A stretch of DNA of 55,211 nt. It comes from Fundidesulfovibrio agrisoli. GTDB taxonomy: Bacteria; Desulfobacterota; Desulfovibrionia; Desulfovibrionales; Desulfovibrionaceae. The stretch's first letter is position 1; each line of letters opens with the position of its first letter. The DNA is taken from the NCBI RefSeq assembly GCF_022808715.1, contig NZ_JAKZKX010000017.1, forward strand, positions 29,494 to 84,704. Direction: 5' to 3'. This document shows, in pieces, positions 22,291 through 55,198 of this stretch. The notes under the pieces are model-generated. The model saw only the letters and a program-made list of their open reading frames with translations, searched no databases and had not been told where the DNA came from. Made by a program: the position numbers and the translations under genes.

Positions 22291-22357
22291 CCCCTCCTGC
22301 AGCCGCACCCGTGCCATATATTTGAAGAATATGACCCGGGTGCGGCTGCCGGAGGGG
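22291..22357. repeat. Conserved-apex hairpin H1 (apex in minus orientation)
   Basis: Arms 22291-22311 and 22337-22357 pair over 21 positions with one mismatch. The inner part folds further as CATAT/ATATG around a 9-base loop, ATTTGAAGA. The apex contains ATATATTTGAAGAA, the reverse complement of the TTCTTCAAATATAT core found in H2 and H3. The arm sequence is unrelated to the arms of the other copies. It begins 29 bases after the tyrA stop. No U-tract follows, so a terminator role is unlikely. Confidence 0.9.
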
Positions 22358-22370
22358 GCCCCCTCGCCCT

Positions 22371-22425
22371 CCCCCCGCTTTCAATTTTTTTTTTATATTC
22401 GGCGGGGGGGGGGGGGGGGGGGGGG
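22371..22425. repeat. Degenerate hairpin H5 with T10 and G22 homopolymer tracts
   Basis: A CCCCCCGC arm (22371-22378) pairs with GCGGGGGG (22402-22409). The loop reads TTTCAA, ten T, then ATATTCGG, which looks like a damaged version of the H-family apex (TTCTTCAA...ATATCGG). The right arm runs into 22 consecutive G (22404-22425). The homopolymers could be real slippage products or sequencing error. Confidence 0.5.
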
Positions 22426-22506
22426 CCACCACGGACCCAGGCCGCACGGTTGGATGCGAGACAGAAAGAATCCGACCGCAGATGATTGAAAACGCGGTGA
22501 CGCGAG

Positions 22507-22600
22507 CCGTTGCCCGGCCCTGTCCCGCGAGGAAGGTGAAAGGCCATATTCTTCAAATATATGGTATTTCACCAACGAGCGGGACAGGGCCGGGCAACGG
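22507..22600. repeat. Conserved-apex hairpin H2 (apex in plus orientation)
   Basis: Arms 22507-22528 and 22579-22600 are a perfect 22-bp inverted repeat. Inside it, GGTGAAA/TTTCACC (22535-22541/22567-22573) and CCATAT/ATATGG (22544-22549/22559-22564) also pair, leaving the 9-base loop TCTTCAAAT (22550-22558). That loop is the exact complement of the H1 loop. The apex core TTCTTCAAATATAT is identical to H3 and, inverted, to H1 and H4. Confidence 0.92.
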
Positions 22601-22634
22601 ACGATGCGAATGAGCAGTCCCACGATGTGGGATT

Positions 22635-22669
22635 CCAAAGGGAGGAACTCCCTTTGGCCGCCGGAGGCA
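22635..22669. repeat. Second hairpin motif, copy A, next to H2
   Basis: CCAAAGGGAG/CTCCCTTTGG forms a 10-bp stem with loop GAA, followed by GCCGCCGGAGGC. Reverse-complemented, it has the same architecture as copy B at 55052-55085: GCCTCCGGCGGC, then CCAAAGGG, a variable tip and the returning arm. It lies 34 bases beyond the H2 right arm and immediately upstream of trpE. Confidence 0.8.
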
Positions 22670-22731
22670 TTTCCCGGCACGCTTGGACGACATACAACGA
22701 AACGAAGCAACGACTACGACAAGGACGCGCC

Positions 22732-24144
22732 ATGATCGAGCTCCTGCAAGAAGCAAAGTGGCTGCCCGCCGACGTGCAGACCCCAATCAGCCTGTACCTC
22801 GGGCTGGTGGGCGACAGGCCGGGCATACTCTTCGAGTCCGCCGAGGTGGACGGCCGCCTGGGCCGCTACTCGATCCTGGCCTGGGATTTCCGCCTCACGG
22901 CCCAATGCCAGGAGGGCAAGCTCCTGCTCACCACCCGGGACGACCGCCTGAAGCCCCTCGAGGAGCTCTCGGGCCTGCCCTTCCTGGACGGCGTGCGCCA
23001 GCTCATGGCCGCCATCACCGTCACCCCCCCGGACGACGCGGGCGAGCTCCCGGCCATCACCCGGGGCCTCTACGGCTACTTCGGCTACGCCTCGGCCGCG
23101 CTGTTCACGCCCAAGCTGGCCAAGGTCATCCCCCCCAAGGACATGGACGTGACCCTGGTGCTGCCCGGCCACGTGGTGCTCTTCGACCACCTGCGCCACC
23201 GCTGCTGCCTGCTCACCCTGGGCGGCGGCATGCGCCCCAAGCTGGACACCACCAACGTGCTGCGCACGATGGACAAGCCCGAGATGGGCGCGGTGCTGCA
23301 CCACCCCGGCGAGCAGCCTTTCCTTGAGAACGTGCGCAAGGCCAAGGAGATGATCCGCCAGGGCGAGTGCATCCAGGTGGTGCTCTCCAACCGCTTCCAC
23401 GCACCCTTCAACGGCGATCCCTTCGCAGTGTACCGCAGGCTCAGGCAGGTGAACCCCTCGCCCTACATGTTCTTCGTGCGCCTGCCGAGGCTCACGCTGG
23501 TGGGCTCCTCCCCGGAGTTCCTGGTGCGCTGCGTGGACGGCAAGCTGACCACCGCGCCCATCGCCGGCACGCGCCCGCGCGGCAAGGACGAAGCCCAGGA
23601 CGAACAGTTCGCGCAGGACCTCCTGGCCGACCCCAAGGAGCGCGCCGAGCACGTGATGCTCGTTGACCTGGGCCGCAACGACCTGGGCCGCATCGCCACC
23701 CCGGGCAGCGTGCGCGTTGAGAAATTCATGCAGGTGGAGCGGTTCTCCCACGTTTTGCACCTGACCTCCTACGTGACGGCCAAGCTCAAGGAGGGCCTGG
23801 ACGCCCTGGACGTGATCGGCTCCGTGTTCCCGGCGGGCACGGTGAGCGGCGCGCCCAAGGTCCGCGCCATGGAGATCATCGCGGAGCTGGAGACCATCGC
23901 GCGCGGCCCCTACGCCGGGGCCATCGGCTGGCTCGGCCTGGACAAGGGCCGCGTGGACCTGGACACCGGCATCCTCATCCGCTCCATGTGGTTCAAGGAC
24001 GGCATGGTCCACTGGCAGACCGGCGCGGGCATCGTCTACGACTCGATCCCCGAGATGGAATGGAAGGAAGTGCACAACAAGGCCCGCGTGCTCGCCGAAG
24101 TGCTTGCAAAACAGGAGGAAGGCGATGTTTTTGCTCGTCGATAA
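22732..24144 (+). CDS. trpE: Anthranilate synthase component I
   Basis: The 470-aa chorismate-utilising enzyme makes anthranilate from chorismate with ammonia supplied by TrpG. The N-terminus carries the Trp-sensing region (ILFESAEVDGRLGRYSIL). The catalytic C-terminal half shows IQVVLSNRF, PSPYMFFVRL, LVGSSPEFLVR, IAGTRPRGKDEAQDEQFAQDLLADPKERAEHVMLVDLGRNDLGRI, FPAGTVSGAPKVRAMEII and GAIGWLGLD. The frame is open further upstream through the repeat region, but ATG 22732 with AAGGA 7 bases before it fits the family start. It overlaps trpG by 20 bases. Confidence 0.95.
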   Translation: MIELLQEAKWLPADVQTPISLYLGLVGDRPGILFESAEVDGRLGRYSILAWDFRLTAQCQEGKLLLTTRDDRLKPLEELSGLPFLDGVRQLMAAITVTPPDDAGELPAITRGLYGYFGYASAALFTPKLAKVIPPKDMDVTLVLPGHVVLFDHLRHRCCLLTLGGGMRPKLDTTNVLRTMDKPEMGAVLHHPGEQPFLENVRKAKEMIRQGECIQVVLSNRFHAPFNGDPFAVYRRLRQVNPSPYMFFVRLPRLTLVGSSPEFLVRCVDGKLTTAPIAGTRPRGKDEAQDEQFAQDLLADPKERAEHVMLVDLGRNDLGRIATPGSVRVEKFMQVERFSHVLHLTSYVTAKLKEGLDALDVIGSVFPAGTVSGAPKVRAMEIIAELETIARGPYAGAIGWLGLDKGRVDLDTGILIRSMWFKDGMVHWQTGAGIVYDSIPEMEWKEVHNKARVLAEVLAKQEEGDVFARR

Positions 24145-24697
24145 CTTCGATTCGTTCACCTTCAATCTGGTGCAGTACTTCCAGCAGCTCGGCCTGGACC
24201 CCGTGGTCAAGACCAACGACGACCCGGAGATCATCGAGCTGGCCAAGTCCGGCAAGGTGGAGCGCTGCTGCATCTCCCCCGGCCCCAGCAGGCCGGAGAA
24301 CGCCGGGCTCTGCCTGGAGTTCCTGAACCACCTGCCCAAGAAGACGCCGCTTCTGGGCGTGTGCCTGGGGCACCAGATCCTGGGGCATTACGCGGGCGCG
24401 CCCGTGGTGGTGGCGGACAGGATCATGCACGGCAAGACCAGCCAGGTGACCCACCGGGAAACGGGGCTCTTCGAGGGCGTGCCCAACCCCATGGAGGTCT
24501 GTAGGTACCACTCGCTGCTGGTTCTGGCGCACAAGGCCCCGGAGAAGTTGGAGATCACCGCCTGGACCGACGAGAACGAGGTCATGGGGCTCAGGTGGAA
24601 GGACCGCCCCTGGGTGGGTGTGCAGTTCCACCCGGAGAGCGTGCTCACGCCCGACGGCATGAAGCTGCTCAAGAATTTCCCGGAGAAGATTAGTTAA
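24125..24697 (+). CDS. trpG: Anthranilate synthase component II (glutamine amidotransferase)
   Basis: The 190-aa class I glutamine amidotransferase feeds ammonia to TrpE. It has LLVDNFDSFTFNLVQYF at the N-terminus, oxyanion loop SPGPSRP, nucleophile Cys in LLGVCLGHQ, and the His/Glu pair in GVQFHPESVLTPDG. ATG 24125 has AGGAGGAAGG upstream and lies inside the last 20 bases of trpE, so the two subunits are translationally coupled. It is not fused to trpD, and in this window two unrelated genes separate it from trpD. Confidence 0.95.
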   Translation: MFLLVDNFDSFTFNLVQYFQQLGLDPVVKTNDDPEIIELAKSGKVERCCISPGPSRPENAGLCLEFLNHLPKKTPLLGVCLGHQILGHYAGAPVVVADRIMHGKTSQVTHRETGLFEGVPNPMEVCRYHSLLVLAHKAPEKLEITAWTDENEVMGLRWKDRPWVGVQFHPESVLTPDGMKLLKNFPEKIS

Positions 24698-24718
24698 TCC
24701 TGAACAGCTTGAACGATC

Positions 24719-25930
24719 ATGAAAAAGAGTATCAAACACCAATCAGCAAAAGGGATACGTGCGCAGGAGTGGTGCAGTTTCCCACGAAAAATGATTGGTT
24801 TTCTTTTTAATTACTCAGGAATTAAAGCAATTTGGTGGATGGTTTCTCCTCCAAAATCTGATCAGTCCAATGAAAAACCATCCACCTTTGCACTGTGGGC
24901 AGTTGGCGTTTATACAGCAGTATTCACACTCGCCATGACAAGGCATGACAGTGCAGCAAAAATCCTGGAGACGCGACTATCAACGGTTTCATCGCAAATA
25001 TCGAACAAAGAAACAAGACAAGTTGCCCTTCAAAGATTGATAGAGATACAGAAAAGCACATGCCCAATAAAGCCTGACTACTTCAACCCGCTCACAATAC
25101 TGCTATCATTAGCTGGAGACGAAGCGAAAAATAAAAGCATAATTCAGTCAACAAAAGAGTTAATCACAATTTATAAGCTTGATCTGCACGACATCGACTT
25201 GTCTGGCCTTGATGTCGATGGGGTAAAGGGGCTCGATCATGCTAACTTTACTGGAAGCGATCTCTCATTTTCAAACTTTTCTAACACGATTGTTAACAAC
25301 TCTAACTTTTCTGGTGCCGACCTCAGAGGAGCAAATTTCTATAATTCAACATGTCGAGACAGTAATTTTATAAATGCATGCATGATTGGAACGAGCTTTA
25401 CTCACTCAAATCTAGAAAGATGTACATTTAACAACATCTCGAAACAATCCTGCCCAAAAAATAATATTTTTGTTAAGGGATACGCCATTGACAACTCAAT
25501 CCCAGGGAATGATGAAACAAAAATAAAACACTCCGGAAGCCTAGGTGAAATAACATACCCATCAATTGTTGATAAAATCAAAAATACGCTTGGGATGGAA
25601 ACCACAAGAATATTCCGCATGAAAGACAAATTCGCATCAAAATTATACTACACTCAACACGAAAATGTGGAGTTATACTTTGACCACTGCGAACTTGACG
25701 GAACGTCGTTCACAAATTCGGACTTAGCTGGATCGTTCTTTATATATTGCAATTTAATAAATACATTAATACAGCCAAACCAACTATTATCTGTGAACTC
25801 TTTATACGGATCAAAGCTTAACGACGCTCAATTAAGGATTCTCAGTGCCAGAAACGAGCTAATTAACGACACACCAAAACCGCGGAGAAAGATACGTATG
25901 ATTATCTCCGATGGTAACTACAGCAAATAA
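24719..25930 (+). CDS. AT-rich pentapeptide-repeat membrane protein inserted in the trp operon
   Basis: The 403-aa protein is encoded by strikingly AT-rich DNA with codons such as AAA, ATA and AAT that neighbours avoid, a strong sign of horizontal transfer. Residues about 59-75 (FALWAVGVYTAVFTLAM) look like a membrane helix. Pentapeptide repeats follow at about 150-240 (LDLSGLD, ANFTGSDLSFSNF, NNSNFSGADLRGANF, SNFINACMIGTSF) and again at about 315-350 (CELDGTSFTNSDLAGSFF). These fold as a right-handed beta-helix. Function is unknown. ATG 24719 has no good ribosome site. It begins 21 bases after trpG and is followed by a DUF2971 gene. Confidence 0.85.
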   Translation: MKKSIKHQSAKGIRAQEWCSFPRKMIGFLFNYSGIKAIWWMVSPPKSDQSNEKPSTFALWAVGVYTAVFTLAMTRHDSAAKILETRLSTVSSQISNKETRQVALQRLIEIQKSTCPIKPDYFNPLTILLSLAGDEAKNKSIIQSTKELITIYKLDLHDIDLSGLDVDGVKGLDHANFTGSDLSFSNFSNTIVNNSNFSGADLRGANFYNSTCRDSNFINACMIGTSFTHSNLERCTFNNISKQSCPKNNIFVKGYAIDNSIPGNDETKIKHSGSLGEITYPSIVDKIKNTLGMETTRIFRMKDKFASKLYYTQHENVELYFDHCELDGTSFTNSDLAGSFFIYCNLINTLIQPNQLLSVNSLYGSKLNDAQLRILSARNELINDTPKPRRKIRMIISDGNYSK

Positions 25931-25964
25931 TTATAACGCAAAATTAAAGCTAGGCGAGTGATCC

Positions 25965-26699
25965 ATGCCCCTCTCCATCCGCAACCTCTCCAACGGCGAC
26001 GAGGCCGGGAGCGAAACCACCCTGTGGAAGTACCTGACGTTCGAGAAGTTTCTCGACTTCCTGCTCATGAAGCGTCTGTACTTCCGCCGCGTGGACCGTC
26101 TCCACGACCCTTACGAGTGCCTGATGCCGCCGGGCATGTACGCCACCGCCAGGGACGAGGAAAGCCCGGAGAGCTGGAAGCGTTTCCTGAAGCGCCACGA
26201 CGACTACATCAGCAACGAGCGCTCCAAGGTGTTCGTGAACTCCTGGCACGTGAGCGAGCACGAGTCCGAGGCCATGTGGAAGCTCTTCGGGGGCAGCGGC
26301 CACTCCCTGGCGGTGCAGACCACCTTCGGCGCTCTGTCCAGCGAACTGGCCCCCCACGACCTCACCGCAGGCAAGGTGCTCTACAAGGACGTGGCCCAGG
26401 ACGACTGCCAGATCAGCGACATCTACGACTTCTCCCTGCTCAAGCGCAGGCCCTTCGAGCACGAGAAGGAGTTCCGGCTGATCTTCATCAACGACGAGGG
26501 CGACCAGAACCCCCGGCTTCTGGACCCAAACGGCCTGCACATCACCGTGGAACCGGCGCACATCATCGAGAGCATCTACGTCTCGCCCCTCTCCGAGCCG
26601 TGGCAGTACGAGCTCTCGCTGGCCATCATCAAGCGGGAGGGGCTCTCGGACAGGGTGACGCGCTCGACGCTGTTCAACTGCCCGGTGATGCGCAAATAA
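25965..26699 (+). CDS. DUF2971 domain protein inserted in the trp operon
   Basis: The 244-aa soluble protein has the DUF2971 pattern: LWKYLTFEKFLDFLLMKRLYFRRVDRLHDPYEC near the N-terminus, FVNSWHVSEHESEAMWKLFGGSGHSLAVQT in the middle, and FEHEKEFRLIFINDE near the C-terminus. Unlike the preceding pentapeptide gene it is GC-rich, so the two may not have arrived together, or this one is better ameliorated. DUF2971 proteins are often found in variable genome regions, but their activity is unknown to me. It lies 34 bases after the pentapeptide gene and 70 bases before trpD. Confidence 0.82.
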   Translation: MPLSIRNLSNGDEAGSETTLWKYLTFEKFLDFLLMKRLYFRRVDRLHDPYECLMPPGMYATARDEESPESWKRFLKRHDDYISNERSKVFVNSWHVSEHESEAMWKLFGGSGHSLAVQTTFGALSSELAPHDLTAGKVLYKDVAQDDCQISDIYDFSLLKRRPFEHEKEFRLIFINDEGDQNPRLLDPNGLHITVEPAHIIESIYVSPLSEPWQYELSLAIIKREGLSDRVTRSTLFNCPVMRK

Positions 26700-26717
26700 A
26701 ACGCTGAACGATTTTCC

Positions 26718-26737
26718 CGCCCGGCGAGCGCCGGGCG
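26718..26737 (+). other. Short GC hairpin before trpD
   Basis: CGCCCGGC/GCCGGGCG with a GAGC tetraloop lies between the DUF2971 gene and trpD. No U-tract follows on the plus strand. It may affect transcript stability or partial readthrough at the point where trp genes resume. Confidence 0.4.
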
Positions 26738-26769
26738 ACGCCGAAACGACAGGCAAGAAGGAGCCCGCG

Positions 26770-27768
26770 ATGGAAGTCCTCGAACATCTGGCCATAGGCA
26801 AGAACCTTACCGAAGAGCAGGCGCTGGCCTCGTTCCGCGCCATGTACAAGGGCGAGATGCCCGCCTCCTGCGTGGGCGCGTTCCTCATGGGCCTCAAGAC
26901 CAAGGGCGAGACCGGGCTGGAGATCGCCTGCGGCGTCAAGGCCGCCCTGGAGGAGGCCCGCCTGGTGCCCGGCCTCGAAGGCGACCGCATCGACACCTGC
27001 GGCACCGGCGGGGACAACACCTGCTCCTTCAACTGCTCCACGGCCGTGGCCATGTACCTTGCCGCGCTCGGCCACAAGGTGGTCAAGCACGGCAACCGCT
27101 CCGTGTCCTCCACCTGCGGCTCGGCCGACGTGCTGGAGTCGCTCGGCGTTGGCCTCACCGTGGAGCCCGACGCCGTGGCCGACGCCCTGGCCCAGCGCAA
27201 CTTCGTGTTCCTGTTCGCGCCCAACTTCCACCCGGCCTTCAAGCGCATCATGCCCATCCGCAAGGAGCTCGGCGCGCGCACGCTCTTCAACCTCATGGGG
27301 CCGCTGCTCAACCCGGCCCGGCCCACGCATCAGCTTTTGGGCGTGCCCACGGCCTCCTTCGTGCCGCTCATCGCGGAGGCGCTCTCGCTCTCGGGCGTGC
27401 GCAACGCCGCCGTGGTGCACGGCGCGGGCGGCTTCGACGAGCTCTCGCCCTTCGGCCCGGCCGAGGTCTGCTGGGTGCGCGACGGCTGGATGCGCCGCGA
27501 CCGCATCGACCCCCTGGACTACGGCATCCCCCGCCACAAGCTCTCCGACGTGGCCGTGGCCAGCAAGGACGAGGCCGTGGCCGTGCTCATCGAGCTGATC
27601 CAGGGCGACGGCCCCCAGGCCATGAAGGACATGCTGGCCCTGAACCTGGGCACCGCCCTGCACCTCCTGGAGCCCGCCCTGACCCTCAAGCAAGGCATCG
27701 ACAAGGCCCGCGACGCCATCGCCTCCCGCGCGGCCGCCGGCTTCTGGAGCCAGTTGACCCATGCTTAA
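26770..27768 (+). CDS. trpD: Anthranilate phosphoribosyltransferase
   Basis: The 332-aa enzyme transfers phosphoribose from PRPP to anthranilate. The PRPP-binding DTCGTGGDNTCSFNCST, the anthranilate-site KHGNRSVSSTCGSADVLESLG, and GARTLFNLMGPLLNPA are all present, as is the N-terminal helical region (EEQALASFRAMYKGEMP). It has no fused amidotransferase. ATG follows AAGGAG. The stop overlaps trpC by 8 bases. Confidence 0.95.
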   Translation: MEVLEHLAIGKNLTEEQALASFRAMYKGEMPASCVGAFLMGLKTKGETGLEIACGVKAALEEARLVPGLEGDRIDTCGTGGDNTCSFNCSTAVAMYLAALGHKVVKHGNRSVSSTCGSADVLESLGVGLTVEPDAVADALAQRNFVFLFAPNFHPAFKRIMPIRKELGARTLFNLMGPLLNPARPTHQLLGVPTASFVPLIAEALSLSGVRNAAVVHGAGGFDELSPFGPAEVCWVRDGWMRRDRIDPLDYGIPRHKLSDVAVASKDEAVAVLIELIQGDGPQAMKDMLALNLGTALHLLEPALTLKQGIDKARDAIASRAAAGFWSQLTHA

Positions 27769-28528
27769 CCGATTCCGCGAAGCCAAGCAGGCCGAGATCG
27801 AGCGCCTCGTCAAACTGGAGGACGAGGGCCTCATGCCCCCGCCCTTCGAGGGCGAACGCCCGGACTTCATCCGCGCCCTGTGGGAGAACGGCCCCGGCGC
27901 GGTGATCGCCGAGTACAAGCGGGCCTCGCCCTCGCGCGGGGAGATCAACATGGGCCTCACCCCCGAGCAGGCGGCCGATGCCTACAGGAAGGCCGGAGCC
28001 GCGGCCATGTCCGTGCTCACGGAGGAGGTCTACTTCAAGGGCAGCCTGGAGTACCTCTCCCGCATGGCCGGCGCTGGCCTGCCCCTGCTCCGCAAGGACT
28101 TCATCCTGCACCCCGTGCAGGTGATCCACACGGCCTCCACCCCGGCCTCGGCCCTGCTGCTCATCGCGCGCATGTGCGAGGCGGAGGAGCTGCGCGCCAT
28201 GCTGGGCCTGGCCGAAGCCTTCGGACTGGCCTGCGTGGTGGAGGTGTTCGACGAGGCCGACCTTAACAAGGTGGAGCCGCTGGAGCCCGAGATCATCCAG
28301 GTGAACAACCGCGACCTGGACAAGCTGACCACGGATTTCGCCGTGTCCGAGCGGCTGGCCGCGCGCAAGCAGGAAGGCCAGATATGGATCAGCGCCAGCG
28401 GGATAAAGACTCGGCAGGACGTGGAGCGCATGGCCGCGCTGGGCTACGACGCCGTGCTGGTGGGGACCTCGCTCATGAGCGGGGAGGACCCGGGCGCGGC
28501 CCTGGCCGGGCTGACTGGACGAAGGTAG
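27761..28528 (+). CDS. trpC: Indole-3-glycerol phosphate synthase
   Basis: The 255-aa TIM-barrel enzyme closes the indole ring. Conserved active-site strands are visible: VIAEYKRASPSRGEI with the catalytic Lys, LTEEVYFKGSLEYL, LPLLRKDFIL, CVVEVFDEADL, IQVNNRDLDKL, ISASGIKT and AVLVGTSLM. It is a stand-alone enzyme, not fused to TrpF. ATG lies inside the end of trpD, and trpF follows after 7 bases. Confidence 0.95.
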   Translation: MLNRFREAKQAEIERLVKLEDEGLMPPPFEGERPDFIRALWENGPGAVIAEYKRASPSRGEINMGLTPEQAADAYRKAGAAAMSVLTEEVYFKGSLEYLSRMAGAGLPLLRKDFILHPVQVIHTASTPASALLLIARMCEAEELRAMLGLAEAFGLACVVEVFDEADLNKVEPLEPEIIQVNNRDLDKLTTDFAVSERLAARKQEGQIWISASGIKTRQDVERMAALGYDAVLVGTSLMSGEDPGAALAGLTGRR

Positions 28529-28535
28529 AGCCGAC

Positions 28536-29159
28536 GTGAAACCGCTCATAAAAGTTTGCGGCATGACCCTGCCCGAACAGGTTGCCGCCATAGACGCCCT
28601 GGGCGCGGACTTCCTGGGCTTCATCTTCGCGGCCAGGAGCCCGCGATGCGTCGCGCCCGGCCACGTGGCCTCCATCGCGCGCGGGCGGGCCAGGCGCGTG
28701 GGCGTGTTCGTGGAGCAGTCCGCCGCCGAGGTGCGCTCCATCATGGACGCGGCCGGGCTGGACTTCGCCCAGCTCCACGCCGGGCAGGACGAGGCCTTCT
28801 GCCGCGAGGTCGGGCCGGAGCGCGTCATCAGGGCCTTCTGGCCCCAGCGCCACGCCTCGCCTGCCGAGCTGGAGGCCGAGATGGCCCGCTACGCGGACTC
28901 CTGCTCCATGATGCTTTTGGACGCGGGCACCTCGGGCGGGGGCCACGGCACGAGCCTGGATTTTTCCGCCCTGGCCGGGCTCAAGGTCCCCCGGCCGTGG
29001 CTGCTGGCGGGCGGCCTTTCCCCGCTCAACGCCCAGGAGGCGCTTGAGCTGGCCCGCCCCGCCGGACTGGACATCAACTCCGGGGTCGAAACCGCGCCCG
29101 GCGTCAAGGATCTGGACAAGGTTTCGCAAACCATAGACATCGCAGCACGCAGCAAATAG
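28536..29159 (+). CDS. trpF: Phosphoribosylanthranilate isomerase
   Basis: The 207-aa TIM barrel starts with IKVCGMTLPEQV (catalytic Cys) and has LGFIFAARSPRCV, VGVFVEQSAAEV, FAQLHAGQDE, MLLDAGTSGGGHG (catalytic Asp) and LLAGGLSPLNAQEAL, then GLDINSGVETAPGVKDLDKV near the end. It catalyses the Amadori rearrangement of phosphoribosylanthranilate. The start is GTG at 28536, 7 bases after trpC. trpB follows after 12 bases. Confidence 0.95.
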   Translation: MKPLIKVCGMTLPEQVAAIDALGADFLGFIFAARSPRCVAPGHVASIARGRARRVGVFVEQSAAEVRSIMDAAGLDFAQLHAGQDEAFCREVGPERVIRAFWPQRHASPAELEAEMARYADSCSMMLLDAGTSGGGHGTSLDFSALAGLKVPRPWLLAGGLSPLNAQEALELARPAGLDINSGVETAPGVKDLDKVSQTIDIAARSK

Positions 29160-29171
29160 AGGCTACCACCC

Positions 29172-30350
29172 ATGCAGAAAGGTTATTTCGGATCGTTCGG
29201 AGGCATGTTCGTGCCGGAACTGCTCATGCCGCCGCTCCTCGAAATCGAGGAGGCCATGAACACCATCGTGCCCAGCGAGGCCTTCCAGAAAGAATTCAAC
29301 GCCATGCTGGAGGACTACGTGGGCCGCCCCTCGGCCCTGTACCGCTGCCCCAACCTCTCGAAGAAGCTGGGCTTCAACCTCTGGCTCAAGCGCGAGGACC
29401 TGAACCACACGGGCGCGCACAAGATCAACAACGCCCTGGGCCAGGGCCTGCTGTGCAGGCACATGGGCAAGAAGGTGCTCCTGGCGGAGACGGGCGCGGG
29501 CATGCACGGCGTGGCCACGGCCACGGCGGCGGCCATGCTGGGCCTGGACTGCGTGGTGTACATGGGCGCCACGGACGTGGTGCGCCAGTCGCACAACGTG
29601 CGGCGCATGGGCCTGCTGGGCGCCACGGTGGTGCCCATCGAATCCGGCACGCAGACCTTGAAGGACGCCATCAACGCCGCCCTGCGCCGCTGGATCGCGG
29701 ACCAGCGCACCACCCACTACTGCTTCGGCACGGCGGCCGGGCCGCACCCCTTCCCCACGCTGGTGCGCATGTTCCAGTCCGTCATCAGCCGGGAGGCCAG
29801 GGCCCAGATGCTTAAAAAAGCGGGCAAGCTGCCCGACTACGTGGTGGCCTGCGTGGGCGGCGGCTCCAATGCCATCGGGGCCTTCAACGAGTTCATCCCC
29901 GACGAGGGCGTTCAGCTCATCGGCGTGGAGGCCGCCGGCACCGGCGAGCCGGGCTGCCACCACTCCGCGCCCCTGAACCTGGGCACCCCCGGCGTGCTGC
30001 ACGGGGCCATGAGCATGCTCCTGCAGACCGAGGACGGCCAGATCGAGCCCTCGCACTCCATCGCCCCGGGCCTGGACTACCCCGGCGTGGGCCCCGAGCA
30101 CGCCCACCTGCAGGACTGCGGCCGCGCCCGCTACGTCACCGTCAACGACGGCCAGGCCCTGAGCGCCTTCCACACGCTCAGCCGCTCCGAGGGCATCATC
30201 CCGGCGCTGGAGAGCTCCCACGCGGTGGCCTGGGCCATCGAGAACGCGGCCGAGATCCCCAAGGGCAGCGACGTGCTGGTCTGCCTCTCCGGGCGCGGCG
30301 ACAAGGACATCGGCATCATCGAGGAGTACGAGGCCAAGAAGGGCTGCTAG
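29172..30350 (+). CDS. trpB: Tryptophan synthase beta chain
   Basis: The 392-aa PLP enzyme condenses indole with serine. It begins GYFGSFGGMFVPELLMPPLLEI, carries the PLP lysine in REDLNHTGAHKINNALGQ, AETGAGMHGVATATAAA, the cofactor phosphate loop CVGGGSNAIG and the C-terminal LSGRGDKDIG. This is the standard TrpB1 type that pairs with TrpA. A 255-base gap containing the long hairpin H3 separates it from trpA, unusual for a pair that is often tightly spaced. Confidence 0.96.
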   Translation: MQKGYFGSFGGMFVPELLMPPLLEIEEAMNTIVPSEAFQKEFNAMLEDYVGRPSALYRCPNLSKKLGFNLWLKREDLNHTGAHKINNALGQGLLCRHMGKKVLLAETGAGMHGVATATAAAMLGLDCVVYMGATDVVRQSHNVRRMGLLGATVVPIESGTQTLKDAINAALRRWIADQRTTHYCFGTAAGPHPFPTLVRMFQSVISREARAQMLKKAGKLPDYVVACVGGGSNAIGAFNEFIPDEGVQLIGVEAAGTGEPGCHHSAPLNLGTPGVLHGAMSMLLQTEDGQIEPSHSIAPGLDYPGVGPEHAHLQDCGRARYVTVNDGQALSAFHTLSRSEGIIPALESSHAVAWAIENAAEIPKGSDVLVCLSGRGDKDIGIIEEYEAKKGC

Positions 30351-30447: not shown

Positions 30448-30552
30448 GCCTTCTGCCTCCTCCCCCGGCCCCTGCTCCCCGAGGCGCGACGATTTTCTTC
30501 AAATATATCGGCGTGCCTCGGGGAGCAGGGGCCGGGGGAGGAGGCAGAAGGC
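30448..30552. repeat. Conserved-apex hairpin H3 between trpB and trpA
   Basis: Arms 30448-30485 and 30515-30552 are a perfect 38-bp inverted repeat, the longest of the family. The 29-base apex holds TTCTTCAAATATAT and pairs further through GATTT/ATATC with one T-T mismatch, leaving loop TCTTCAAAT. The arm sequence shares nothing with H1, H2 or H4. It begins 97 bases after the trpB stop, ends 53 bases before the trpA ATG, and would be transcribed with the operon. Confidence 0.95.
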
Positions 30553-31522: not shown

Positions 31523-31536
31523 GGGGGCGCGAACGA

Positions 31537-48589: not shown

Positions 48590-49998
48590 ACACACCCTCC
48601 CCTTCCTTCACGATCCTGCTGGTGGACGACGAGCCCGCCTGGCTGCGCTCCATGGCCCTGACCCTGGAGAGCGCCGCGGGCATCACCAACACCCTCCCCT
48701 GCCAGGACAGCTCCCAGGTGATGGGCATCCTGGAGCGCGGCGGCGTGGGCCTCGTGCTCCTGGACCTGAACATGCCGGGCCTCGGCGGCGAGGAGCTGCT
48801 GGCCCTGATCGCGGAGCGCCACCCGGAGATCGCCTGCATCGTGGTCAGCGGCATGGACCAGCTGGCCGGGGCCATCCGCTGCATGAAGCTGGGGGCCTAC
48901 GATTATCTGGTGAAGACCGACGAGGAGGAGCGCATCGTGGGCGGCGTGCTGCGCGCCGTGCGCATGCTGGAGCTACGCGACGAGAACCGCGAGGTGGCCA
49001 GCCGCCTTGTCACCGGCGGGCCGCGCCAGCCCGAGGCCTTCACCGGCATCGTCACCCGCAGCCGGGCCATGCGCGCCATCTTCGCCTACGTGGAGGCCGT
49101 GGCCGCCAGCCCCCAGCCCCTGCTCGTCACCGGGGAGAGCGGCGTGGGCAAGGAGCAGCTGGTGCGCGCGGCCCACGCCCTGAGCGGGCGCGCCGGGCCG
49201 CTGGTGGCCCTCAACGCCGCCGGGCTGGACGACGCCGTCTTCGCGGACACCCTCTTCGGCCACGTGCGCGGGGCCTACACCGGCGCGGACGCCCCCAGGC
49301 GCGGCATGATCGAGGAGGCCGCCGAGGGCACCCTGTTCCTGGACGAGATCGGCGACCTGAGCGTGGCCTCGCAGGTGAAGCTCTTGCGCCTGCTCCAGGA
49401 GGGCGAGTTCTACCCCCTCGGCAGCGACCAGCCCCGGCGCATCCGCGCCCGCATCGTGGTGGCCACCCACTGCGACCTGGCCGCCAAGGAGGCCGCCGGA
49501 ACCTTCCGCCGCGACCTCTACTACCGCCTGCGCACCCACCACGTGCACGTGCCCCCGCTTCGGGAGCGCAGGGAGGACATCGAGCCCCTGCTGGCCCACT
49601 TCCTGGACGAATGCTCCCGGGAGCTGGGCCGGCCCAGGCCCGCCCTGCCGCCCGAACTGGCGCGGCGGCTGGCGGCCTACCCTTTCCCGGGCAACGTGCG
49701 CGAACTGCGGGCCATGGTCTACGACGCGGTGAGCGTGCGGCGCGGCGCGGCCCTGCCCCAGGAGCCCTTCCTCAAGGCCCTCGGCAGATTCGCCCCTGAA
49801 ACCGGAGCGCAGCCCGGAGCGGAGAACCCCTTCGCCGCCTTCGAGAACCTGCCCAGCCTCTCCGAGGCGGCCCGCCTGCTGGTGGACGAGGCCATGCGCC
49901 GCTCGGGCGGCAACCAGACCCTGGCCGCGCGGCTGCTGGGCATCTCGCAGCCCGCGCTGAGCAAGCGCCTGAAGCTCAGCCGCCACGACGGGGCCTGA
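48586..49998 (+). CDS. Sigma-54-dependent response regulator (NtrC family)
   Basis: The 470-aa regulator has a receiver domain (LLVDDEP, phospho-acceptor D60 in VLLDLNMPG, LVKTDEEER), a sigma-54 AAA+ domain (Walker A TGESGVGKE, GAYTGA loop in GHVRGAYTGADAPRRG, Walker B LFLDEIGDL, RRDLYYRL, FPGNVRELR) and a C-terminal Fis-type helix-turn-helix (GGNQTLAARLLGISQPALSKRL). GTG 48586 has GGAGGAG upstream and overlaps the kinase stop by 4 bases. The sigma-54 promoter and paired palindromes just downstream, before the transporter gene, make that operon its probable target. Confidence 0.93.
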   Translation: MNTPSPSFTILLVDDEPAWLRSMALTLESAAGITNTLPCQDSSQVMGILERGGVGLVLLDLNMPGLGGEELLALIAERHPEIACIVVSGMDQLAGAIRCMKLGAYDYLVKTDEEERIVGGVLRAVRMLELRDENREVASRLVTGGPRQPEAFTGIVTRSRAMRAIFAYVEAVAASPQPLLVTGESGVGKEQLVRAAHALSGRAGPLVALNAAGLDDAVFADTLFGHVRGAYTGADAPRRGMIEEAAEGTLFLDEIGDLSVASQVKLLRLLQEGEFYPLGSDQPRRIRARIVVATHCDLAAKEAAGTFRRDLYYRLRTHHVHVPPLRERREDIEPLLAHFLDECSRELGRPRPALPPELARRLAAYPFPGNVRELRAMVYDAVSVRRGAALPQEPFLKALGRFAPETGAQPGAENPFAAFENLPSLSEAARLLVDEAMRRSGGNQTLAARLLGISQPALSKRLKLSRHDGA

Positions 49999-50110
49999 GC
50001 CCCCGCGCCGGGCAAGCCTGGCGACGCGCGCCCCTTGGCGCACTCCGCCGCAAAGCCGCCCCGCCCGCGTTCCCTGTGGGCGGCGCTGACGCTCATGCGC
50101 TTCTGCCACG

Positions 50111-50128
50111 CCATAACCAGGGTTATGG
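50111..50128. promoter_or_regulatory. Upstream activator site 1
   Basis: CCATAACC-AG-GGTTATGG is a perfect inverted repeat with 8-bp arms. It lies about 175 bases upstream of a sigma-54 promoter and just beyond the gene for an NtrC-family activator. It shares the arms CATAAC/GTTATG with the second site. Confidence 0.8.
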
Positions 50129-50198
50129 GGTCGCAACCGGGAAATAACCAGCCCAACTACTTGTAATCACAGCTATTATCTCAGAAGGTCCGCAAGGC

Positions 50199-50214
50199 CA
50201 TAACTTTGGTTATG
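50199..50214. promoter_or_regulatory. Upstream activator site 2
   Basis: CATAAC-TTTG-GTTATG repeats the arms of site 1 with the same 16-base overall length. The two centres are 87 bases apart, roughly eight helical turns. A half-site (ATAACC) also lies between them near 50146. Confidence 0.8.
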
Positions 50215-50291
50215 ACCGACCAGGCCTTCGTCCGCCCTCCACGCAGACGCAACCACCTATCATTTCAGGATAAATCCACCCCGTGCCGATT

Positions 50292-50308
50292 TGGCATCGT
50301 CCCTGCTT
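50292..50308 (+). promoter_or_regulatory. Sigma-54 promoter of the transporter-fumarase operon
   Basis: TGGCATCGTCCCTGCTT has the invariant GG (50293-50294) and GC (50305-50306) exactly 10 bases apart, as in TGGCAC-N5-TTGC. It lies 84 bases before the DASS transporter ATG and downstream of two palindromic activator sites. Confidence 0.82.
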
Positions 50309-50391
50309 AAAGGGAGCGCCGCACCCCGCCAGTGGCGGGCAGGCGGCGGACCAAGATTCCGGGCATAGCAACCTCAAGCACAGGAGTGGAA

Positions 50392-51822
50392 ATGAGCCTG
50401 AACTTCAAGGCCCTTGCGCCGCTGATCGTCGGGGCGGTGTTGTGGGCGCTGCCGGTTCCCGCCGGGCTGGCCCCCAACGCATGGGCGTATTTCGCCATCT
50501 TCGCGGCCGTGGTGGTCGCCCTCATCCTGGAGCCCATCGCTCCGGCCCTGGCCGGCCTGGCGGGCGTGACCCTGGCGGCGCTCTTCAAGCTGGTGCCCAT
50601 GGCCGCCGGCAAGGACCCCTCCGCGGCCGACGCCATCAAGTGGGCGCTCTCGGGCTTCTCCGACGGCACGGTCTGGCTGATCTTCGGCGCGTTCATGTTC
50701 GCCCTGGGCTATGAGAAAACCGGCCTTGGCAAGCGCCTGGCGCTGTCGCTCATCAAGGTCATGGGCAAGAAGGCCCTGGGCCTGGGGTACGCCGTCGCCC
50801 TGGCGGACCTGATCCTGGCGCCGTTCATGCCCTCCAACACCGCCCGCAGCGGCGGCACCATCTTCCCGGTCATCAAGAACATCCCCCCGCTCTACGGCTC
50901 CACCCCGGAGGACAACCCGCGCGGCCTCGGCGGCTACCTGATGTGGACGGCGCTGGCCACCACCTGCGTGACCTCCTCCATGTTCCTCACCAGCCTGGCG
51001 CCCAACATCCTGGCCCAGTCCCTGGTGGAAAAGACCACCAAGGTCGTGCTCAACTGGAACGACTGGTTCATGGGCTTCCTGCCGGTGGGCATCGTGCTCT
51101 TCGCCATCACCCCGCTGCTGGCCTACATCCTCTACCCGCCCACCAAGAAGTCCTCCGACGACGCCCCCATCTGGGCGGGCAACGAGCTCAAGAAGCTGGG
51201 CTCCATCACCTCCCGCGAGATCCTCATGGCCGTGCTGGCCCTGGGCGCCCTCCTGAGCTGGATCTTCCTGAAGGACCAGGTGCAGGCCACCACCGTGGCC
51301 CTTGCCGCCATCTGCCTGATGGTGGTGTTCAAGGTGGTCAGCTGGGACGACGTGATCGGCTACAAGCAGGCCTGGAACGTGCTGGCCTGGTTCGCCACCC
51401 TGGTCACCCTGGCCGACGGGCTGAACAAGGTGGGCTTCCTGGCCTGGTTCGCCAAGAGCATCTCCGGCTCCATGGTGGGCCTCTCGCCAACGGCCACCAT
51501 GGTCGGCCTGGTGCTGGTGTTCTTCCTGAGCCACTACATGTTCGCCAGCGTCACCGCACACGTGGCGGCCATGCTGCCCGTGATGCTGGCCGCCGCCATG
51601 AACGTGCCCGGGCTGGATATCAGGCTGGTCTCCATCCTGCTCTGCGGGACGCTCGGCATCATGGGCGTCATCACGCCCTACGGCACCGGCCCCTCCCCCA
51701 TCTACTACGGATCGGGCTACGTGAAGGGCAAGGACTTCTGGATCCTCGGCCTGGTGTTCGGCATCGTCTACCTCGGCGCGTTCCTGCTCATCGGCTTCCC
51801 CTGGAACCTCGCCCGGGCCTAG
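50392..51822 (+). CDS. DASS-family anion (dicarboxylate) transporter
   Basis: The 476-aa inner-membrane protein has about 12 hydrophobic segments and the DASS/CitT signatures: FGAFMFALGYEKTGLGKRLAL, ADLILAPFMPSNTARSGGTIFPVI (the SNT motif), TSLAPNILAQ, and LCGTLGIMGVITPYGTGPSPIYYGSGY near the C-terminus. Members carry di- and tricarboxylates such as malate, fumarate, tartrate or citrate. ATG 50392 has AGGAG upstream. It is driven by the sigma-54 promoter and followed by a two-subunit fumarase-type enzyme, so the cargo is probably a C4-dicarboxylate or tartrate-like acid. Confidence 0.9.
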   Translation: MSLNFKALAPLIVGAVLWALPVPAGLAPNAWAYFAIFAAVVVALILEPIAPALAGLAGVTLAALFKLVPMAAGKDPSAADAIKWALSGFSDGTVWLIFGAFMFALGYEKTGLGKRLALSLIKVMGKKALGLGYAVALADLILAPFMPSNTARSGGTIFPVIKNIPPLYGSTPEDNPRGLGGYLMWTALATTCVTSSMFLTSLAPNILAQSLVEKTTKVVLNWNDWFMGFLPVGIVLFAITPLLAYILYPPTKKSSDDAPIWAGNELKKLGSITSREILMAVLALGALLSWIFLKDQVQATTVALAAICLMVVFKVVSWDDVIGYKQAWNVLAWFATLVTLADGLNKVGFLAWFAKSISGSMVGLSPTATMVGLVLVFFLSHYMFASVTAHVAAMLPVMLAAAMNVPGLDIRLVSILLCGTLGIMGVITPYGTGPSPIYYGSGYVKGKDFWILGLVFGIVYLGAFLLIGFPWNLARA

Positions 51823-51852
51823 GCGCGGCGATTCCCGTTTCCCTCCTCGCGT

Positions 51853-51876
51853 CCCGGGCGGCTTCGGCCGCCCGGG
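51853..51876 (+). other. Stable intercistronic hairpin with UUCG loop
   Basis: CCCGGGCGGC/GCCGCCCGGG with a TTCG tetraloop lies between the transporter and the fumarase alpha gene. No U-tract follows, so it is more likely to set differential mRNA stability than to terminate. Confidence 0.6.
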
Positions 51877-51896
51877 GCCCCTCCCAAGGAGACACC

Positions 51897-52730
51897 ATGC
51901 GGGTCATTTCATCCCAAAGCGTCGAGGACGCCGTGGCCGGGCTGTGCGTCACGGCCAACCGGCACCTGCCGCCGGACGTGCGCCGGGCCTTCCTGCACCG
52001 CCAGGCCGCCGAAAGCCCGCTGGGCAGAGAGGCCCTGCGCCAACTGCTGGACAACGCCGAACTGGCCGGGCAGCTGGGCCTGCCCCTCTGCCAGGACTGC
52101 GGGTTGGCCGTGTTCTTCGTGGAGCACGGCGAGGACGCGCGCGTTCAAGGCCTGCCGGTGCGCGAGGCCGTCAACCGGGGCATGGTCCGGGGCTACCGCG
52201 AAGGCTACCTGCGCAAGTCCACCTGCGACCCCTTCACCCGCGACAACCCCGGGGACAACTCCCCGGCCGTGGTGCATTTCGACATGGTGCCCGGCGATAC
52301 GCTGCGCATCTCCATGATGGTCCAGGGCGCAAGCGCGGAGTATTCCCGCGCCGCCATGCTGGACCCGGCCCTGGGCGTGCAGGGCGTGCGCGAGTTCGCC
52401 ATCCGTGGCGTGGCCGAGGCCTGCCGGGGCGTGTGCGCCCCCATGGTGGTCGGCCTCGGGGTGGGCGGCAGCTTCGAGTGGGCCGCGCAGGCTGCCGCTC
52501 GCGCCCTGCTGCGCCCGCTGGACATCGAGAACCCCGACCCCTTCCTGGCCGGGCTGGAGCAGTCCCTCACACAGGCCGCGAACCGGCTGGGCGCAGGGCC
52601 GCTGGGCCTGGGCGGGGCCACGACCTGCCTGGGCGTGAGCGCCCTGGCCGCGCCCTGCCACCCCGGCACCCTGCCCGTGGCCCTGGCCATCCAGTGCCAC
52701 TCGGCCCGGCGCGGGGAGGTGACGCTGTGA
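51897..52730 (+). CDS. Class I fumarate hydratase / tartrate dehydratase alpha subunit
   Basis: The 277-aa protein matches the alpha subunit of two-subunit, oxygen-sensitive Fe-S hydratases. It shows PLCQDCGLAVFFVEHG, FTRDNPGDNSPAVVHFDMVPGDTLRISMMVQGASAEYSRAAML, GVCAPMVVGLGVGGSFEWAAQAA and GGATTCLGVSALAAPCHPGTLPVALAIQCH. Several cysteines are in place to bind the 4Fe-4S cluster. Length fits two-subunit fumarase (about 280 aa) better than TtdA (about 300 aa). Adjacent transport suggests use of an imported hydroxy-acid or fumarate. AAGGAGA precedes the ATG, and the beta gene overlaps by 4 bases. Confidence 0.9.
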   Translation: MRVISSQSVEDAVAGLCVTANRHLPPDVRRAFLHRQAAESPLGREALRQLLDNAELAGQLGLPLCQDCGLAVFFVEHGEDARVQGLPVREAVNRGMVRGYREGYLRKSTCDPFTRDNPGDNSPAVVHFDMVPGDTLRISMMVQGASAEYSRAAMLDPALGVQGVREFAIRGVAEACRGVCAPMVVGLGVGGSFEWAAQAAARALLRPLDIENPDPFLAGLEQSLTQAANRLGAGPLGLGGATTCLGVSALAAPCHPGTLPVALAIQCHSARRGEVTL

Positions 52731-53284
52731 TCCGCACCCACGCCCTGTCCACGCCCCTCAGCGCCCAGGCCGCCTCGGAGCTGCGCAGCGGCGACGTGGC
52801 CTACCTCACGGGCTTCCTGCTGGCGGGGCGCGAACCGGCCCACCAGCGCCTCCTGGAGGATCTGGAGCGCGGCAGCCCCCCGGTGGAGCTGGAAGGGGCC
52901 GTGATCTACTACGTGGGCCCCAGCCCCATGACCCCGCAACGGCCCATCGGCGCGGCCGGGCCCAGCTCCGCCTGGCGCATGGACCCCTACACGCCGCGCC
53001 TGCTCCAGGCCGGAGTGCGAGCCACCATCGGCAAGGGCGCGCGCGGCCCCGAAGTGCTCACTGCCATGCGCCTTCACGGGGCCGTGTACCTCGCCGCCAC
53101 GGGAGGTGCCGGGGCCCTGCTCTCGCTGTGCGTGCGGGAGGTCAGCATCGCGGCCTACCCGGAACTCGGGCCAGAGGCCCTGCACCTGCTGCGCGTGGAA
53201 AAGTTCCCCCTGACGGTGGTCAACGACAGCCTGGGCGGCGAACTCTACGCAGCGCCGGACCTGGACGCCGCCCTTCACGGCTAG
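52727..53284 (+). CDS. Class I fumarate hydratase / tartrate dehydratase beta subunit
   Basis: The 185-aa protein is the partner swivelling domain: LRSGDVAYLTGFLLAGREPAHQRLLEDL, GAVIYYVGPSPMTPQRPIGAAGPSSAWRMDPYTPRLLQAGVRATIGKG and GAVYLAATGGAGALLSLCV. GTG 52727 overlaps the alpha stop with GGGGAGG just before it. Together with alpha it should hydrate fumarate to malate or dehydrate tartrate. Sequence alone does not settle the substrate. Confidence 0.9.
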   Translation: MIRTHALSTPLSAQAASELRSGDVAYLTGFLLAGREPAHQRLLEDLERGSPPVELEGAVIYYVGPSPMTPQRPIGAAGPSSAWRMDPYTPRLLQAGVRATIGKGARGPEVLTAMRLHGAVYLAATGGAGALLSLCVREVSIAAYPELGPEALHLLRVEKFPLTVVNDSLGGELYAAPDLDAALHG

Positions 53285-53384
53285 AAGGGCTCCGAACCGA
53301 TCGAAAACCGCCCCGAAGCGGATGCTTTCCGCCCCGCCCCGTGCTATGGGTGCCTAAACAGCATCCGCCGCCCTCGGGGGACCA

Positions 53385-55031
53385 ATGCTCCGACGCTTCT
53401 CCATCTCTGCGCGCCTGTTCGGCCTTGCCGGGCTCGTGCTGCTCTCGGCTGTGGGCACCCTCGTGGTGCTGGGCCTGGCTTCCACGCGCCTGGAAAAGAT
53501 GATGGTCCGGCACACCCAGACCACCCTGCTCGAATCCGAAAAGATCAAGATCAAGGCCCTGACGCACTCCATGTCCCTGGCTCTGGCCAACGCCATGGCC
53601 GACATCCCCGACGAGGCCAAGCGCACCAGGCTGGCCCGCAAGGCCGTGGACCCCGTGCGCTTCGAGGACGACGCCTCCGGCTACTTCTTCATCTACCGGG
53701 GCACCACCAACGTGGCCCTGCCCCCCCGCCCCGAACTGGTGGGGCGCGACCTCAACGACTTCGTGGACCGCAACGGCGTCTACTACGTGCGGGAGCTGGC
53801 CCGCCAGGCCGAGTTGGGCGGCGGTTACGTGCATTACGTCTTCACCAAGCCCGACGGCGTGCTCGAGGAGAAGGTCAGCTACGCCGAGCCCATCCCCGGC
53901 ACGGACCTCTGGATCGGCACCGGGGTCTACCTGGACCGCGTCAACCGGGAGATGCGCTCCATCGCCAACGTGGTCACCGAGCTGTTCGAGACGGTGCTCG
54001 GCGCGGCCGCCGGGGCCACTGTCCTGATGATGGCGCTGCTCTGCCTGGCCTGCCTGGCCATCGCCCACAGCGTGGTGCGTCCGCTGGCGGAAGTGACCGA
54101 CGCGGCCGAGCGCATCGCCGGGGGCGACCTGGACACCCGGCTCTCCGCCGGAGGCCGCGACGAGGCCACCCGGATGCAGGCCGCGCTCAACCGCATGACG
54201 CAGATCCTGCGGCGCAACATCAGCGAGATCGAGGCCCGCCGCCAGGAAGCGGAGGACAAGGCCAACCTGGCCCAGCAGGCCCTGCGCGAGGCCCGCCGCG
54301 CCGGCGAGGAGGTCGTGGTGCAGGTGGCCCGGCGCATCGAGAGCCTGCAGAAGATATCCTCCTCCGTGGCGCACCAGTTGCGCAACCCCACCACCATCAT
54401 CGGCGGCCTGGCCGGGCTGCTGCTCAAGAAGCCCACCCTGCGCGAGCGCTACCTGGACTACCTCGACGGCATCGTGGAGGCCGCCCGGCGCATCGAGCAC
54501 ATCACCGCCGCCGTGAAGGAGTACAGCGCCATCCGCCTGGGCAGGCTCAGCCCCACCTCCGGCGCGGACCTGCTGGAGAAGGCCCGGACAGCCGCCGAGG
54601 CCCTGGCCCAGGCCATGAACAAGCAGGTGGTCTGGACCCTGGAGGACGACGGCTCCGTGGTGCGGGCCGACGCCGAACTGCTGGCGTTGGCGGTGCGGGA
54701 GGTGGCCATCAACGCCGTGGAGGCCCTGGAAAAGGACGAGGGGCACATCGCCATGAGCTCCCGGCGAGAGGAGGAGTGGCTGGTCATCACCGTGCAGGAC
54801 GACGGGCGCGGCATCACCGCCGAGGACATGCTCTACGTGCTGGACCCCTTCCACAGCACCAAGCCCGTGGGCGTGGGCATGGGCCTGACCAAGGCCCAGC
54901 GAATCCTGCAGGAGCACGGCGGCTCCATCAGCGTGGAAAGCTCCCCGGGCAACGGGACCACGGTGCGCATGCGCCTGCGCACGGACCTCAGGGAGCTGCC
55001 CGTGCCCGGCGGGGAGCCGGTGGCCGTGTAG
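53385..55031 (+). CDS. Cache-domain sensor histidine kinase with HAMP
   Basis: The 548-aa membrane kinase has an N-terminal helix (LFGLAGLVLLSAVGTLVVLGL) and a single periplasmic Cache domain (GYFFIYRGTTNVALPPRPELVGRDLNDFVD, YVHYVFTKPDGVLEEKVSYAEPIPGTDLWIGTGVYLD). A second helix (AAAGATVLMMALLCLACLAIAH), HAMP, a HisKA-like helix with SVAHQLRNPTTIIGGL, and HATPase (VREVAINAVEAL, VQDDGRGITAEDMLYVLDPFHSTKPVGVGMGLTKAQRIL) follow. The phospho-His region reads HQLRNP. No regulator gene is adjacent. It begins 100 bases after the fumarase beta gene and may sense a related carboxylate. Confidence 0.9.
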   Translation: MLRRFSISARLFGLAGLVLLSAVGTLVVLGLASTRLEKMMVRHTQTTLLESEKIKIKALTHSMSLALANAMADIPDEAKRTRLARKAVDPVRFEDDASGYFFIYRGTTNVALPPRPELVGRDLNDFVDRNGVYYVRELARQAELGGGYVHYVFTKPDGVLEEKVSYAEPIPGTDLWIGTGVYLDRVNREMRSIANVVTELFETVLGAAAGATVLMMALLCLACLAIAHSVVRPLAEVTDAAERIAGGDLDTRLSAGGRDEATRMQAALNRMTQILRRNISEIEARRQEAEDKANLAQQALREARRAGEEVVVQVARRIESLQKISSSVAHQLRNPTTIIGGLAGLLLKKPTLRERYLDYLDGIVEAARRIEHITAAVKEYSAIRLGRLSPTSGADLLEKARTAAEALAQAMNKQVVWTLEDDGSVVRADAELLALAVREVAINAVEALEKDEGHIAMSSRREEEWLVITVQDDGRGITAEDMLYVLDPFHSTKPVGVGMGLTKAQRILQEHGGSISVESSPGNGTTVRMRLRTDLRELPVPGGEPVAV

Positions 55032-55051
55032 GCGGGGGAATGGGTGGAGGC

Positions 55052-55085
55052 GCCTCCGGCGGCCAAAGGGCCTTCGGCCCTCTGG
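55052..55085. repeat. Second hairpin motif, copy B, next to H4
   Basis: GCCTCCGGCGGC is followed by a CCAAAGGGCC/GGCCCTCTGG stem (one mismatch) with a TTC tip. It has the same plan as copy A beside H2. Its tip differs (CC/GG instead of AG/CT), but the pairing is kept. It lies 22 bases outside the left arm of H4, so relative order and orientation to the hairpin match those of copy A and H2. Confidence 0.8.
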
Positions 55086-55107
55086 ACTCCCGTATAATTG
55101 GGTTTGA

Positions 55108-55198
55108 GTCTCCCAGGTGGCCTGCGGGGGGACGGCGCACGCCGATATATTTGAAGAACATCGTCCTGCGCCGTCCCCCCGCAGGCCACCTTGGAGAC
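55108..55198. repeat. Conserved-apex hairpin H4 (apex in minus orientation)
   Basis: Arms 55108-55139 and 55167-55198 pair over 32 positions with a single mismatch. The 27-base apex contains ATATATTTGAAGAA. Its flanks read CGCCGAT and ATCGTC, closely matching the reverse complement of the H3 apex flanks. The arm sequence is unrelated to those of the other copies. It ends 13 bases before the window end. Confidence 0.92.

Follow-up and report, generated by a model that had tools for sequence, protein, structure and literature searches.

Bacterial interspersed palindromes usually conserve their stem. Among them, the repetitive extragenic palindromic (REP) families are described as conserving the stem in PMC3733652. 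In this work we analysed a 55,211-nucleotide stretch of a Fundidesulfovibrio agrisoli contig (the window), which holds four long hairpins of a family that is arranged differently: each genome has dozens of copies in which a nine-base loop and an approximate rod length persist, and the rod drifts by paired changes. This points to repeats maintained for their shape and their loop rather than for the sequence of the stem. The family is real, large, multi-copy and intergenic, and we did not find it described in the literature or in Rfam. We tentatively favour the explanation that it is a lineage-specific family whose members act as single-stranded folds, most likely RNA. In the following, G000 denotes the genome of the window, G001 to G006 the relatives in the genus that were analysed alongside it, and G342 a genome of another genus that consists of one contig.

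Hairpins of the window

Exact matches to the core of the hairpins lie at 22316-22329 (minus strand), 22549-22562 (plus), 30495-30508 (plus) and 55145-55158 (minus) of the window. With up to two mismatches allowed, there are four matches against 0.01 expected, and none of 100 shuffles reached four. The corresponding hairpins, H1 to H4, occupy the first four places in the window's list of 19 inverted repeats, and their folds greatly surpass those of shuffled sequence, with z-scores of -7.5, -12.2, -15.4 and -12.0, respectively. The exact cores and strong folds confirm the four long hairpins sharing an apex that a first-pass annotation had reported, and the closing pairs, CC/GG in H2 versus CG/CG in H3 and H4, are as it described. 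Its apex is indeed identical in H1 to H4; across the family, however, the 14-mer varies and the conserved part is the nine-nucleotide loop, TCTTCAAAT in all four hairpins.

H1 (22280..22368, minus strand; loop 22320..22328) belongs to type A as defined below. The annotation gave near-perfect arms to all four hairpins, but the outer left arm of H1 appears damaged in this assembly. Poly-T and poly-G stand in that arm at about 22380-22425, where the G003 ortholog (C20:56267) continues a clean stem of 40 rungs; sequencing or assembly has probably failed at this hairpin. H2 (22507..22600, plus strand; loop 22550..22558; G003 ortholog C20:56040) is composed of a 22-bp outer stem, an internal loop and a 14-bp apical part, and lies upstream of trpE. 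H3 (30448..30552, plus strand; loop 30496..30504) is a hairpin of 46-48 bp between trpB and trpA, and differs from its G003 ortholog (C20:48999) by three both-sided changes. H4 (55108..55198, minus strand; loop 55149..55157) is a type A hairpin of 41 rungs with the foot GTCTCC/GGAGAC.

Size and distribution of the family

The core occurs in 25 copies in G000 (19 exact and 6 with one mismatch) and in 36 copies in G003. Inspected by eye, all 25 matches in G000 are at hairpin apices (16 whole, 8 at contig ends with partial arms and 1 split by an insertion sequence), as are 35 of the 36 in G003, the exception being locus L114; some contig-end copies in G003 show only a few bases of one arm. In these genomes the core is therefore not common outside hairpins; had it been, this would have spoken against a family. 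Elsewhere, the longer GATATTCTTCAAATATATC was found in 19 stretches (15 genome contigs and 4 viral), none of which was hairpin-like by eye within 40 bases.

In order to search more widely, two covariance models were used. The first, R1, was built from 28 copies, with rows chosen for gap-free good pairing; at E <=0.1 it returned 85 rows in G000, in which both strands of a site were often counted, and 59 distinct places were listed. R1 also gave 24 matches in G086. The second, R2, was built from 26 rows of several genomes and, under strict filters, had matches in 10 of 348 genomes of the order, belonging to 2 of 59 genera. With fuller scoring, R2 matches numbered 52 in G002, 38 in G342, 20 in G001, 19 in G006, 4 in G005, 2 in G004 and 1 in G107, with none in G030 and G123. 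Two same-strand pairs of G342 matches, C1:2935224/2935408 and 3030172/3030386, are each about 200 bases apart, which suggests tandem or clustered gain. Some contig ends resemble the two halves of one hairpin (C37/C52 and C11/C27 in G000, C5/C22 in G003), and copy numbers in assemblies split in this manner may be off.

The annotation knew of no described element of this design, and we found none either. In Rfam 15, only a tRNA reaches its gathering score in the window; the same is true of ten loci with family members, where look-alikes of miRNA precursors stay below theirs. No title or abstract start describing this hairpin family was found, and term searches within PMC2267715 and PMC8632094 gave no match. 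One composite type B query found nothing in phage and plasmid collections. In viral contigs, three patterns gave none and a fourth gave 4 chance matches.

Loop, closing stem and rod

The anatomy was derived from 124 parsed places of G000, non-orthologous G003, G001, G005, G002 and G342. The nine-nucleotide loop is TCTTCAAAT in 94 of them, TCTTCCGAT in 17 and of other forms in 13, counts that are not an unbiased sample since the places were found with a model containing the loop. TCTTCAAAT is likewise the loop of 16 of the 17 parsed G342 copies and 17 of 22 in G086 and G107, where parsing demanded a close loop. The pairs adjacent to the loop covary (GATAT/ATATC, GATGT/ACATC, GACAT/ATGTC, GATCG/CGATC and GGCGTAT/ATGCGCC) in a closing stem of about 5-7 pairs, outward of which there is often an internal loop or mismatch, and then the rod. 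Rod and apex together make 40-42 rungs in 56 of 87 hairpins of G000, G003, G001 and G005, and 36-38 in 14 of the 17 copies of G342; in 22 copies of G002 the median is about 53 (range 26-60).

By eye, two subfamilies can be told apart in G000 and G003. In type A the foot is often GTCTCC/GGAGAC, and the flank consensus of 19 copies is CGCc.TGaacCg.gtt on the 5' side and Tc.AAcccaA on the 3' side. A flank-motif pattern was too loose, matching the 5' side only in 32 of 83 copies, the 3' side only in 2, both in 6 and neither in 43. Type B has the core GATGTTCTTCAAATACAGC and arms that are more alike between copies. By eye, G001, G002, G005 and G006 have forms closed by GATCG, and the other genus has forms closed by GGCGTAT. 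Another hairpin that is common between genes, CCAAAGGG...CCCTTTGG with GCCTCCGGCGGC and CTTCGCG flanks, occurs at 22635-22672 and 55058-55092 of the window and at many other loci. It often adjoins family copies, on the 3' side of type B or on the 5' side of type A.

Two other identities were considered. The identity of CUUCAAA with the tRNA-Sec anticodon loop was dropped because the variant TCTTCCGAT breaks the match. A coding role was also rejected: reading through the hairpin in 82 copies hits a stop in 28, 48 and 47 of them, depending on the frame. A peptide from the hairpin is unlikely; although one frame is open in 54 of the 82, the loop codons end in A or T in a GC-rich genome.

Covariation and strand bias

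Among the 28 rows of R1, 30 of 32 stem pairs have both-sided changes, and the covariation score is 0.808 compared to 0.199 for shuffled and at most 0.160 for slid rows. Modelling of the apex, as the annotation had proposed, revealed covariation of the closing stem across the two genera. In 32 rows chosen by their loop, 97.4% of apical-stem cells are paired, with a score of 0.893 compared to 0.290 shuffled and at most 0.131 slid, and one position of this stem holds U.G in 19 of the 32 rows.

We then compared 20 orthologous hairpins of G000 and G003, in which 139 stem pairs differ. Fifty-two of these changed on both sides and are still Watson-Crick; there are 7 further both-sided changes. Of the one-sided changes, 26 link a Watson-Crick pair and G.T, 11 involve A.C, 39 involve other mismatches and 4 link two non-Watson-Crick states. 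The 52 both-sided changes are scattered, and their 25 transitions and 27 transversions resemble the ratio among single changes (38:42). Long divergence under a pairing constraint explains the unrelated arms better than capture from the target would.

Mismatches were counted on the loop strand, and the scoring was strand-symmetric in that G.T and A.C carried equal weight. The 87 hairpins hold 163 G.T versus 33 A.C, and 163 purine-purine versus 44 pyrimidine-pyrimidine mismatches. More than 12 pairs away from the loop, the respective ratios are 76:24 and 59:29. For the 33 core-pattern copies of G000 and G003 they are 52:10 and 51:16, and beyond 12 pairs 22:7 and 20:9, the latter not significant (p 0.06). 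In G002, the copies of which are closely related, G.T:A.C is 56:6.

Placement and copy turnover

None of the 124 places is inside a predicted gene. Relative to the neighbouring genes, 42 are in tandem sense versus 15 antisense, and 45 are convergent versus 1 divergent; the median distance to the upstream stop codon is 150 nt. For replichore orientation in G342, the best of many tried splits was 26:12 of 38, which is not convincing. The strand-biased mismatches and the sense-biased intergenic placement together favour a one-strand fold, most simply RNA, though not decisively. They also lend support, along with the mostly kept loop and the closing stem covarying in two genera, to the annotation's proposal of selection on a recognised loop, the sense bias being weak without G342.

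Copies differ between relatives. One hairpin-free site is the trpC-trpF gap of the window (28533..28536), where G003 has about 350 extra nucleotides including a type A hairpin; another presence/absence difference is at G003 C3:183986, and in neither is gain or loss polarised. A type B copy present in G003 is absent in G000. The annotation had held that arms existing without the core at orthologous sites would undo the family, and such sites were found in part. At the ortholog of G003 C1:402794, G000 retains the right arm without the left arm and core; the counterparts of G003 C1:427118 and G000 C13:48850 in the other genome are short hairpins that lack the core; for G003 C1:54902 the element's flanks are retained in G000 and the hairpin is gone. 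We take these arm-only, shortened and flank-only sites for probable deletions, given that flanks belonging to the element itself are still in place, with the direction of change unpolarised. Forms of this kind would be expected from slippage between short repeats, and failure of the library or the assembly might also yield them.

As to the unit, 22 of the 52 G002 matches were picked for their tied high scores. Their inner 36 arm positions are alike (identity 0.85 to 1.00), the outer ones vary, often together with their partners, and identity drops to background near position 54. The common inner arms and the end of similarity near position 54 indicate that the whole hairpin is the unit. The idea that the core captures inverted repeats of its target as arms has no support, given these common inner arms and the similar arms of type B by eye. 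An IS1595-family insertion sequence interrupts one hairpin loop (L021 1500-2260, on G000 C3) and is flanked by the 8-bp duplication TTGAAGAA.

Weighing of explanations

The explanation we favour can be put as follows. Each element would consist of a rod, about 36-54 bp long, and a cap formed by the loop UCUUCAAAU (or UCUUCCGAU) with its short covarying stem. The loop, the apical stem with its U.G pair in many copies and the approximate rod length would be the recognised features, the rod sequence being free provided that pairing holds. The folded strand would be transcribed, and a trans-acting factor may bind loop and rod. New copies would arise by some mobilisation, arms would be kept matched by fold selection together with template-switch homogenisation, and copies may be lost by slippage across the hairpin. 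On this view the family is best seen as an intergenic element that is structured, amplifies and is probably transcribed. The loop is conserved, the stems covary, rod length is fairly constant, placement is intergenic and copies differ between relatives; in addition, mismatches are strand-biased in G000, G003 and G001, and G002 holds a set of similar copies. A bolder version, which we regard as rather unlikely, is a new class of bacterial mobile hairpin: a trans-acting factor would recognise the rod with its UCUUCAAAU cap and cause bursts of spreading in which only the pairing of the rod is kept, and would do so without RAYT, reverse transcriptase or integron integrase.

Several results weigh against an RNA fold. 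In the apical stem, both-sided pair changes (392 of 500) and further pair types (476 of 500) are not above shuffles. G-U intermediates are not favoured among the ortholog changes, a result that DNA template switching explains equally well or better, and in one orthologous pair with the same flanks (G000 C12:269516 and G003 C1:621594) the loop is inverted. G.T:A.C is 20:23 in the 17 copies of G342, opposite to the trend, perhaps due to an internal loop scored as A.C; purine-purine:pyrimidine-pyrimidine there is 28:2. Without G342 the tandem sense bias is 28:14 (p 0.04), and in G000 alone 15:8 (p 0.21); that the sense bias leans on G342 and that the loop is not fully uniform weakens this reading in favour of a DNA-level repeat. 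Also, a scan found no sigma-70-like promoter near H1 and H2, H3 lies within the trp gene cluster, and the copy that G003 carries between trpC and trpF runs antisense to the cluster.

A serious and close rival, and a realistic possibility, is a miniature mobile repeat at the DNA level, similar to miniature inverted-repeat transposable elements or REPs, in which an enzyme acts on the hairpin of single-stranded DNA and the arms are matched merely by template switching. G.T pairing is possible in single-stranded DNA too. The differing copy content of close relatives, the clustered copies, the alike inner arms of the examined G002 copies and the lack of transition bias in both-sided changes fit such a repeat, as does the inverted loop; template switching between inverted repeats is reported, in PMC8604942, to homogenise arms and invert spacers. 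On account of these reported effects, template switching probably contributes to arm matching here. Template switching alone, however, leaves the strand bias unexplained, and neither a loop-relative strand bias nor a sense bias is expected when it is neutral. Moreover, a Y1 transposase was found in none of the seven genomes of the genus (G342 being outside that search), and no target-site duplication of the hairpin element was recognised.

A role as transcription terminator or 3'-end barrier for the gene upstream, in which a protein binds the loop, would suit the very stable folds and the convergent, sense-biased, intergenic placement. We consider it improbable: by eye no T-run follows the stems of H1 to H4, H3 sits between trpB and trpA, the median copy is 150 nt past the stop codon, and 8 of 22 G002 copies, like many of 21 aligned G086 copies, have a further terminator-like hairpin ahead of the element (by eye). 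A terminator scan found none near H1 and H2; it admits loops of 3-8 only and is blind to these hairpins. A trp attenuator or leader would account for H1 and H2 preceding trpE and H3 preceding trpA, but is hardly credible for a genome-wide distribution in which 55 of the 59 listed places of G000 are outside the window. Equally hard to credit are inverted repeats created by the assembler. Places at contig ends (21 of 59 in G000, 8 of 53 in G003) and copies beside N runs or poly-G would agree with an artefact, but orthologs occur in two assemblies, stems covary, and hairpins break assemblies more readily than assemblies would make hairpins; the 38 matches in single-contig G342, of which 17 parsed as hairpins, also argue against an origin in assembly.

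The family predicts that both genera have a factor, yet to be discovered, that binds the loop or mobilises the element. It also offers a natural experiment on the maintenance of long duplexes, in which selection for an RNA fold can be told apart from homogenisation by template switching.

Neighbouring genes

H1 and H2 are flanked by a prephenate-dehydrogenase-like gene and trpE, and H4 is downstream of a histidine kinase gene; genes were called with a codon-usage script and named by Pfam.

Comparison with known systems

Structured RNA families of Rfam 15 share a covarying stem and a conserved loop with the present hairpins, but none of them reaches its gathering score at these hairpins in the window or in the ten loci with family members. 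REP elements and REPINs with their RAYT (TnpA-REP) are alike in being multi-copy intergenic palindromes that are recognised on one strand and vary in copy number between relatives. The REP stems described in PMC3733652 measure 5-13 bp and carry a GTAG or CGTC tag, whereas here the stems are about 36-54 bp, the loop is conserved and the stem sequence is free; no such tag was noticed by eye in the hairpins, for which no pattern search was made. The domain of RAYT (Y1_Tnp, PF01797) occurs in 38 of 119 genomes of the host's taxonomic family, including G086, and REP/RAYT mobilisation was rejected on its absence from the genus genomes. Reverse-transcriptase mobilisation was rejected because the many-copy genomes G002 and G342 have no RVT_1 (PF00078), nor do G001 and G086; G000 has 1 and G003 has 2 (5 of 12 genomes overall). 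Integron mobilisation was rejected as well, with no integrase over the TIGR02249 cut-off in 12 genomes; matches below the cut-off occur in all 12 of these genomes and likewise in all 14 controls.

Integron attC sites resemble the family in their variable stems and strand-specific folding. Their conservation sits at the base, whereas here it is mainly at the apex. ERIC and other long imperfect intergenic palindromes are alike in being about 120 nt long, intergenic and present in dozens of copies. ERIC copies conserve the stem sequence, while in this family the loop is conserved and the stems drift by paired changes.

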